Shown here in pieces: positions 2,191 through 4,182 of a stretch of DNA of 64,000 bases. Each line of letters opens with the position of its first letter. Within the stretch, counting starts at the first letter, position 1. Below the pieces are notes generated by a model, which was given only the letters and a program-made list of their open reading frames with translations, was not told where the DNA came from and searched no databases. The stretch covers positions 4,559,501-4,623,500 of the forward strand of contig NZ_SAUH01000001.1 in the NCBI RefSeq assembly GCF_004193175.1, written 5' to 3'. A program made the position numbers and the translations under genes. Source of the DNA: Streptomyces sp. RFCAC02 (GTDB lineage Bacteria; Actinomycetota; Actinomycetes; Streptomycetales; Streptomycetaceae).

Positions 2191-2707
2191 CGGCTCGCGG
2201 TCCAGGGATTCCGCTCCGCCCGTCCGGCGCGCCCGGACGGGCGGTGTGAGGGGCACGGCCGTCGCGGCATCGTTCCACCCGGCGCCGACCAGGGCGTTCG
2301 CCATGGCGCGGGAAAACGTTTGCGCTCGGGGTGACGGCACGGAGCCGCGCCGCCCGGCGCGTCCGGTCTCCGGCACATACCCGACCACCGCTGCCCGTGC
2401 ATCGTTACACCTGGGCGGGGGCGCGCGGTCTCCTCGCCCGTACTTCCCGGTCGCAAGCCGCCCTGCTGCCGCCGCCATCGTTGTACCCGGCGACAGCAGC
2501 GCTGCCCGGCACGGACCGCGCGTCCGTCGGTTGATCGGCCCTGCTCGGACCGCCGGCGCGTTCGCGGCCGTACCGGCTGGTTGTAAATCGTTGCACCTCG
2601 GGCGTGGGGCACGGCTTCCTCGCCGACTCTTCCTGACCGCCCGGTCGCCCGGCTGTTGGTGCATCGTTCTACCGGCGAGGGGCGAGCTGCCCGGCCCAGG
2701 AGGTACT

Positions 2708-2840
2708 CCCGGCTGCTGTGCGCCCGGTCCGGAGCACGCGCCTGGCCCGCTGTCCTGCTCCGTGCAGGCCACGCGCCTGGCCGTTCCGGATGCTGGTGGA
2801 TCGTTGTAGTCCGGGGATGAGGCGCGGTCCCTTCGCAGGC
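2708..2840 (+). repeat. ~130-bp direct duplication, copy 1
   Basis: This segment is nearly identical to 3426-3558, at an offset of 718 bp. It includes a GCCCGGTCCGGAGCACGCGC stretch and one palindromic core near 2801. Identity fades at about 2840. A third, shorter piece of the same sequence is at about 3038-3054. This points to segmental duplication inside the array. Confidence 0.85.
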
Positions 2841-3079
2841 ACCTTCTGCCCGCGACCGCCCGACTGCTGGTACATCGTTTTCCGCGCGGCGTCGTCGGGG
2901 CGACCCGTAAGTCTCCTCGGCCGCTTGGCGGCTCGTGCATCGTTCTACCCGGGACGAGGGCTCAGTCCACCCCGCCGCCTTTCTGATCGCCCGATCGCCC
3001 GGCTGCTCGTGCATCGTTGCAGTCGGGCGGCCGAGCTGCCGGTCCGGAGCACGCTCCCGACGGTTGTCGTGCCCGGATC

Positions 3080-3277
3080 AGGACTCGGCTCGCGGCAGAG
3101 CTCGTGCATCGGCTCGGCAAGGAGGCGCGGCCCGTCGTCCTGGGGCATGTCCAGCGCGGCGGCACGCCGACGGCGTACGACCGCGTCCTCGCGGCCCGGT
3201 TCGGCTGGCACGCGGTGGAGGCGGCGCACCGGGCGAGTTCGGCATGATGACGGCGCCGCACGGCACGGAGATCGTGA
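3080..3277 (+). pseudogene. Fragment duplicate of pfkA 3' region
   Basis: 198 bp that match pfkA 1912-2110 with about ten differences by eye, including a single-base deletion in the CACCGGGGCGAG stretch that breaks the frame. It has no start codon or upstream half of the gene, so it cannot encode an active phosphofructokinase. Two of the substitutions turn CTCGAGCACCGG into CTCGTGCATCGG, which resembles the core of the surrounding repeat. This hints that recombination or conversion with the array shaped it (inference). Confidence 0.9.
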
Positions 3278-3425
3278 ATCCGGGGCCGCTTCCGGCCGTA
3301 TCGATTGCTTGTGAACCGTTGCACCGAGGGAGGGCGCGCGGTCAACCTGCCGATCTTCTAGATCGGTCGGCCGCAGGTGCATCGTTGTACCGGCGACGGT
3401 CACGCTGCCCGGCCCCTGGTGCATC

Positions 3426-3558
3426 CCCGGCTGTTGTGCGCCCGGTCCGGAGCACGCGCCTGGCCCGCTGTCCTGCTCCGTGCAGGCCACGCGCCTGGCC
3501 GTTCCGGATGCTGGTGGATCGATGTAGCCCCTGGGATGAAGCGCGGTCCTTTCGCTGG
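3426..3558 (+). repeat. ~130-bp direct duplication, copy 2
   Basis: Second copy of 2708-2840. It carries the same GGATGCTGGTGGATCG core but with CGATGTAG where copy 1 has CGTTGTAG. Differences increase toward the 3' end. Confidence 0.85.
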
Positions 3559-4182
3559 CGCATTCCGACTGCGAGTCTGCCTGGCTGCCGGCACAACGAC
3601 GTCTGGGGGACGGCGGTGTCGTCCGTTCCCGTCCGTCTCCTCGGTCCTCTGGCTGCCTGTGCATCGTTACACCTGGGCTGGGGATCGGCGCGTGTCGTCG
3701 GCGTTCCCGGGGCGCCCGGCCGCGCGGCTGCTGGTGCATCGTTGTAGCGGCGGCTGTGCCGACCGATGCGGCTGGTGCTTCCGGCTGCCGAGACGTCGCT
3801 GTTCCCGGGCCGCCTGGCAGCCGGGCCGCGAGCGTCCTCACTCCTGCACGCCACGGTGGAACGTTCTACTGTCCCTAGCCCTCGACCCCGTGGTCGCCGG
3901 CGGTTCCGCGCCGCGTGTCCGCCGGATCGGGTGGTTCCCCGTGTCCGTACGCGGCGCCTCACCGTCGACCGGAAAACGTTCCACCGACGGTACGGACAAC
4001 GTTCCACCCCGCCGCCTCCGCCCCCGCGCTGTCGGTGTCTGGCAGCGCCTGTCAGAGAGGGCGCCCCGCCTGTCAGCTTCCTGTGCGGGCGGTGACAGGC
4101 GCCTTCGCGAGGCTTGCACCGACAACGATGCACCGGCCCTGTCCCACCGGACTGGGGCAAGCTAAGGAGAGGAGAGCCCGCC

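Follow-up and report, generated by a model that had tools for sequence, protein, structure and literature searches.

Helically phased arrays of a probable LacI-type operator sequence in the genome of Streptomyces sp. RFCAC02

A 64,000-nucleotide stretch of the Streptomyces sp. RFCAC02 genome (the window; C1:4559501-4623500 of 6.1 Mb in two contigs, genome label G000) carries four arrays of a short palindrome centered on AACGTT or ATCGTT. A preliminary description made from the letters of the window had pointed out this palindrome; the observation is confirmed here and is larger than first described, and the accompanying interpretation is partly supported. With a probability of roughly 0.6, we propose that the sugar-gene operator of one LacI-family repressor, P0001, has been expanded in this lineage into repressor-binding arrays. 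The identity of the motif is well supported, and its role would be that of a cooperative nucleoprotein structure or a repressor sponge. The arrays are not an ordinary repeat and, by a test of their two arms, not RNA; they are probably LacI-type operators that are unusual in number, place, and order. Textbook LacI-family repressors, by comparison, are local switches with few operators each.

Distribution of the palindrome

A symmetric weight matrix gave the consensus GGTRNAWCGWTNYACC, with GGAAAACG as a variant half-site. Sites are 16 bp long, and columns 8 and 9 are C and G at a frequency of 0.99; the palindrome is therefore even with a central CG, as expected of a LacI operator. In the window, which has a GC content of 73.5%, the matrix retrieved 30 sites scoring >14 bits in four clusters (18, 5, 3, and 4 sites), in agreement with the earlier estimate of at least 30 variants in four intergenic clusters. 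The approximately 15 copies of AACGTT originally counted were recovered exactly (15, versus 2.74 ± 1.57 in 100 dinucleotide shuffles, with a maximum of 6). Two of these lie outside the clusters, as had been stated, at 9794 and 59220 rather than at 9791 and 59218. The first falls within a GNAT gene (9343-9984, our own gene call), in a 17.5-bit site bordering cluster 2, and the second falls in a chance-level 10.4-bit match. Allowing up to three mismatches, GGTGCATCGTTGNACC occurs 22 times in the window, with 2.2 matches expected.

Across the genome, the wide pattern GKRNAWCGWTNYMC is present at 92 places and the strict pattern GTRNAWCGWTNYAC at 51, while the reversed control of either pattern gave 0. 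Only five isolated places were seen among the ∼50 listed of the 92. The weight matrix was run over 753 kb, consisting of the window and further stretches that were in part chosen for having sites. It retrieved 127 sites >14 bits, of which 121 fall into 14 groups (neighbors ≤3 kb apart), five are single, and one is on the small contig C2; three more single sites >14 bits were found in additional stretches beyond the 753 kb. The groups are located at 1.1536 (15 sites), 2.5868 (8), 2.6030 (3), 4.0592-4.0626 (5), 4.0687-4.0771 (16), 4.5618 (18), 4.5693-4.5715 (8), 4.6022 (4), 4.6344 (10), 4.6543 (6), 4.7450 (3), 4.7552-4.7588 (9), 4.7653-4.7685 (5), and 5.3881-5.3909 Mb (11). Three of them lie in the window, where clusters 2 and 3 count as one group. 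Based on our own codon-usage gene calls, site density is 0.59/kb between genes (88 sites) and 0.064/kb within them (39 sites, 15 of which are in one gene), an approximately nine-fold difference. Neither a density at the level of shuffled DNA nor an equal frequency within genes, each named in the preliminary description as grounds for discarding the observation, was found.

A matrix built solely from the 30 window sites retrieved 75 sites ≥15 bits in the nine other array loci. With the same matrix, 27 stretches not picked for hits (539 kb) contained a single site ≥15 bits: none in 8 evenly chosen stretches (160 kb), one in 16 flank stretches (319 kb), and none in the contig ends and C2 (60 kb). 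Eight stretches picked for a single hit (100 kb) contained four.

Groups occupy gaps between convergent genes (4.6022, 4.7571, 4.7675, and 2.6030 Mb), divergent genes (4.6543 and 5.390 Mb), and tandem genes; taken as a class, the groups are thus not promoter elements of their neighbors. Pfam analysis of 30 proteins, mostly array neighbors, revealed no common theme (PFK, GatB, GcvH, GH6, aldehyde dehydrogenase, tyrosinase, RHS, thioesterase, and others). Two further occurrences in coding DNA were observed: an RHS-repeat gene (L028 3119-7564, minus strand) has three motif sites inside, and two consecutive P-loop-like genes (L027 9426-10594, own calls), only the first of which is backed by Pfam, and weakly, contain five.

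A repressor whose promoter carries the same sequence

Among the 28 LacI-type helix-turn-helix (HTH) domains of G000, P0001 alone has the helix GVSVSAVSKVV. This LacI-family repressor is encoded outside the window (C1:4058014-4059105, minus strand), and its divergent promoter, facing genes for a GH5-type glycosidase and an enolase-superfamily protein, contains two motif sites 45 bp apart. When 391 other genomes of the genus were sampled, six had a relative of P0001 at an E value of ≤1e-120. Five of these orthologues (in G037, G120, G156, G186, and G271; 70-72% identity) have an identical helix. In all five, the promoter carries the main operator GGTATATCGTTYTACY (22.9-23.8 bits), and in four of the five it also carries a second, weaker site (12.6-20.5 bits). 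A matrix derived from 103 array sites, from which the P0001 promoter sites were excluded, scored the main operators of P0001, G120, G156, G037, and G186 at 23.0-24.1 bits. The strict pattern GTRNAWCGWTNYAC matches 1, 2, 1, 1, and 1 times in G037, G120, G156, G186, and G271, respectively, versus 51 times in G000, and its highest count in the 391 other genomes is 6. Five of the six strict matches in the five relatives are the main operator, ∼120-220 bp from the repressor coding match. Judged by sequence, the palindrome thus appears to be the operator of a single LacI repressor in G000, located at the promoter of its gene and kept at those of five orthologues, which bears out the resemblance to LacI-family operators that had been suggested. 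A promoter position was found at P0001 only. Because array sites are found in gaps of every orientation (convergent, tandem, or divergent) as well as within genes, they are operator-like sequences that are LacI-like at most in binding and are not ordinary promoter operators.

Several observations weigh against P0001 as the protein behind the arrays. In G120, no second site >12 bits accompanies the main operator, and the next orthologue, G429 (60% identity, near-identical helix), has no site >11 bits in its 4-kb locus. At position 5, the native main operator has T, a base that few array sites show (7%). In G000, matches of 11-18.2 bits lie within 1.5 kb of the HTH of four further LacI genes, and LacI gene L122, which shares V17 and K22 with the P0001 helix and not S18, has no nearby match >11 bits. 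No LacI HTH was detected at 14 single-hit loci of other genomes (14.9-22.4 bits) or at four loci from collection scans, using a pattern that recognizes 21/28 known cases; the result at the 14 loci indicates that lone matches are largely due to chance. Array DNA served for the iterative training of the first matrix; the window-only matrix gives the same picture. Finally, a typical local repressor may not be abundant enough to occupy 120 sites.

Some of these points would fit a different DNA-binding protein, such as a second LacI-family protein, a nucleoid protein, or a partition protein, for which the resemblance of the motif to the P0001 operator would be incidental. We regard this as unlikely. 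Unlike LacI regulons, the arrays as a class do sit outside promoters and beside unrelated genes, and both the unusual T at position 5 and the weaker matches near other LacI genes are consistent with another binder. However, in a survey that covered LacI HTHs, only P0001 of the 28 has the helix that accompanies the operator in other genomes. A partition protein is disfavored by the sequence and location of the sites. The parS site, GTTTCACGTGAAAC, clusters near oriC; nine parS-like places were found at 2.87-3.18 Mb and none at the arrays, so parS was rejected. Relative to the main parS cluster (near 3.12 Mb), 12/14 groups lie 0.9-2.3 Mb away and the remaining two ∼0.5 Mb away.

Phasing and growth of the arrays

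Adjacent sites are separated by 22-23, 33, 45-46, 54-58, 65-70, 73-79, or 86-88 bp and by larger distances, with no pair at intermediate lengths. After removal of pairs with similar spacers (61 to 55 pairs) and with the 15-site coding array left out, distances of ≤90 bp (n = 36) were phased at 10.8 bp with a Rayleigh R of 0.68, a value reached in 0/3000 jitters (±6 bp, period scanned; p<1/3000). Including distances of ≤112 and ≤130 bp lowered R to 0.50 and 0.43, respectively (0 and 1 of 3000 jitters). Neighboring sites are thus whole helical turns apart, and repressor dimers bound to them would lie next to each other along the same face of the helix.

Equal-length spacers are mostly unrelated in sequence, although two of the four 33-bp spacers have GGCGAGCG in common. 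When 18 array segments were compared by blastn, nearly all matches fell within single arrays, and three short ones joined different arrays. This pattern indicates that arrays grew by local duplication and were not copied from one another. By sequence comparison, the groups have almost nothing in common beyond the core, which is not the pattern of a repetitive extragenic palindromic (REP) or miniature inverted-repeat transposable element (MITE)-like repeat. The proposal of a genome-wide short interspersed repeat is disfavored accordingly, as the groups also occupy few, tight locations.

The array at 1.1536-1.1553 Mb is the only one in which all sites (n = 15) lie within one open frame (L076 5385-8618; 1077 amino acids with a Pro-rich N-terminal part). 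Septum_form and DUF4190 matches to the protein are both below cutoffs, and because the gene caller began the gene after the array, it is the open frame that supports a coding N-terminal part. Each of the 14 spacings is divisible by three. Ten of the sites encode ENDAP and five encode IDAP/IDTP variants; the alternation of Asn and Ile corresponds to AAC/ATC (W of the motif), and that of Ala and Thr to GCA/ACA (R of the motif). Within the first 650 codons, GAT was used for 15/16 Asp residues touching sites versus 1/50 elsewhere. This bias, confined to the sites, and amino acid alternations that follow the motif suggest that the constraint acts on DNA; selection for a repeated ENDAP/IDTP peptide was therefore rejected as an explanation. 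Common ancestry of the repeat units accounts for some of this uniformity. The motif would here override codon choice and even amino acid choice (Asn/Ile, Ala/Thr) in a repetitive protein region.

It is rather improbable, in our estimation, that the arrays are useless repetitive DNA grown by slippage and duplication from chance sites. Local duplications, including a copied fragment of pfkA, do occur within arrays, relatives with the repressor do without arrays, and neutral growth may account for part of the copies. Yet different arrays have almost no sequence in common besides the motif, helical phase is kept despite mostly unrelated spacers, and the coding region bends its codons to the motif. 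Sites have also changed less than flanks since duplication: across six pairs of duplicated segments from four arrays, 281/307 site columns were identical, compared with 1231/1518 flank columns (Fisher p=3e-6, indicative only, because alignment columns are partly dependent).

It is scarcely credible that the motif works in RNA or single-stranded DNA as a hairpin, a terminator, or a REP-like structure. It does form an inverted repeat in intergenic DNA and at times directly follows a stop codon, but complementary pairs are not in excess across 105 sites outside the coding array (for columns 4/13, 36 were observed versus 45.1 expected; for columns 5/12, 35 versus 34.4), the frequent ATCGTT core breaks one inner pair of the palindrome, and Rfam matches nothing in the window apart from a glycine riboswitch at another location. 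The missing covariation likewise argues against the structured RNA tract once considered for this DNA. A protein dimer that recognizes half-sites tolerantly would be expected to let the arms vary independently in this way; a hairpin would not.

Possible roles of the arrays

Under the proposal of an expanded P0001 operator, the home operator consists of one strong and usually one weaker site between the P0001 gene and the glycosidase/enolase-superfamily operon, as conservation in five relatives shows. In this lineage, the operator has multiplied into ∼14 groups of 3-18 sites each, between functionally unrelated genes and once within a coding region. P0001 would most likely bind the arrays, with side-by-side dimers cooperating, and the resulting local nucleoprotein stretches would hold a large share of the repressor. 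The outcome would be a sponge that alters induction of the sugar operon, regional elements that structure or silence the chromosome, or both. We weigh sponge and architecture about equally, with a slight lean toward structure, since phasing across this many arrays would be unnecessary for a sponge alone; either role presupposes binding. The nucleoid-protein site raised in the preliminary description may correspond to a nucleoid-like role with the LacI repressor as the likely binder. A stronger version is that a local sugar repressor was recruited as a nucleoid-like protein, with >100 phased sites having arisen by selection, independently in ∼14 places and even through a gene, and with arrays hundreds of kilobases apart being bundled or silenced in response to sugar; we offer this as a speculative extension with a minor chance of being correct. 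If the arrays do bind P0001, they would be a natural experiment on a transcription factor becoming a sponge or an architectural protein, as arrays were not seen in the five relatives that keep the repressor and home operator.

Laboratory operator arrays for fluorescent tagging (FROS) likewise place many operators of one regulator on a chromosome; the arrays described here are natural, with diverged copies and mostly unrelated spacers. The parS and Noc-type site sets are also short palindromes at several chromosomal places, although their sequence is different and parS is located elsewhere in this genome. According to a comparative survey of LacI-family operators, such operators are even palindromes with a central CG, lie mostly 30-140 bp upstream of a start, and form groups of up to four adjacent sites; distances between sites peak at 13, 22, and 32 bp, and the survey authors interpreted the 22- and 32-bp peaks as cooperative binding (PMC4052901). 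Relative to that survey, our motif agrees in its palindrome, in its site at the promoter of the repressor itself, and in its spacings of 22-23 and 33 bp, which are close to those two peaks, and differs in having 18 sites in one gap, 15 in one gene, and many away from promoters. Synthetic DNA sponges (PMC7686491) similarly present many binding-site copies able to hold a regulator from its target; those are engineered, whereas the present arrays are chromosomal, in ∼14 places, and helically phased.

Occurrence in other genomes

The wide pattern GKRNAWCGWTNYMC matches 13-33 places in ten high-count genomes and 2-18 places in the six genomes with a P0001 relative; the strict pattern is the better discriminator. 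In G248, sites surround two LacI genes with S-A-V-S-K-V helices, and in G115 and Caballeronia pedi (L135; four sites), sites adjoin LacI genes with other helices. A scan of 84,980 named genomes for site pairs returned seven stretches, none from Streptomyces, although records near the genome of the window were possibly excluded from that scan. Four of the seven are the Caballeronia pedi locus and the three metagenome tracts described below, the other three have one site each >14 bits, and a viral scan returned one stretch with one site. No paper on the motif or on natural LacI operator arrays was found in the open literature, searched in open-access holdings only; the open-access papers containing one motif string concerned unrelated topics by title and abstract.

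Three tracts in metagenome-assembled genomes (MAGs) were observed in passing. A Bacteroidetes MAG has eight GGTRCATCGTTCYACC-like 16-mers (L131 2150-2336) that are strikingly similar to the motif, at spacings of 21, 21, 22, 42, 21, 22, and 22 bp; a simple pattern found no LacI HTH in this 8-kb locus. A Prolixibacteraceae MAG (L136 2835-3081) has a GGT-N10-ACC tract at 21-bp spacing that includes GGTGCAACGTTGCACC, and a Chloroflexota MAG (L137 6032-6346) has tandem CAACGTGGAACGTTCCACCTTCC-type repeats. The same pattern detected no LacI HTH at either tract.

Arrays of the window and their surroundings

Array 1 (2264..4134) fills a 2-kb gene-free gap with 18 sites >14 bits, located by weight-matrix scan and gene calls at 2264, 2310, 2396, 2582, 2658, 2795, 2869, 2934, 3008, 3310, 3376, 3513, 3658, 3733, 3855, 3970, 3993, and 4119; a weaker extra site is at 2472 (13.2 bits). 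The gap separates two plus-strand genes, pfkA upstream (6-phosphofructokinase, 1216..2190; Pfam PFK, 1.1e-93) and a DrrA-like ABC transporter ATPase gene downstream (4183..5190; Pfam ABC_tran and DrrA1-3_C). Within the array, 3072..3277 (plus strand) is a copied 3' part of pfkA, in which 3072-3233 matches 1904-2065 at 94% identity and 3231-3277 matches 2064-2110 at 96%; no separate function was seen for the copy. When 295 genomes (294 relatives) were searched with the gene-free DNA, the matches listed outside G000 all fell on this copied piece. The same was true of five plasmid records and one phage record, which revealed no mobile-element relative; the best two plasmid-collection matches are from Streptomyces.

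Array 2 (9789..10391) has sites at 9789 (within the called GNAT gene), 10014, 10121, 10275, and 10376, and array 3 (11918..12034) has sites at 11918, 11986, and 12019, the last two being 33 bp apart. Between them, one minus-strand open frame (10675-11754) combines a MerR-type HTH with DNA polymerase III beta-clamp domains, an odd combination.

Array 4 (42691..42842) consists of sites at 42691, 42724, 42794, and 42827, spaced 33, 70, and 33 bp apart. It lies in the gap where a CBM48/alpha-amylase-domain gene and gcvH face each other with their 3' ends; because these genes converge, no promoter of either is expected there. The glycine riboswitch that is the sole Rfam match in the window (RF00504, 64.5 bits; 44647-44739, minus strand) lies near this glycine-cleavage gene, where it is expected, and is unrelated to the arrays.
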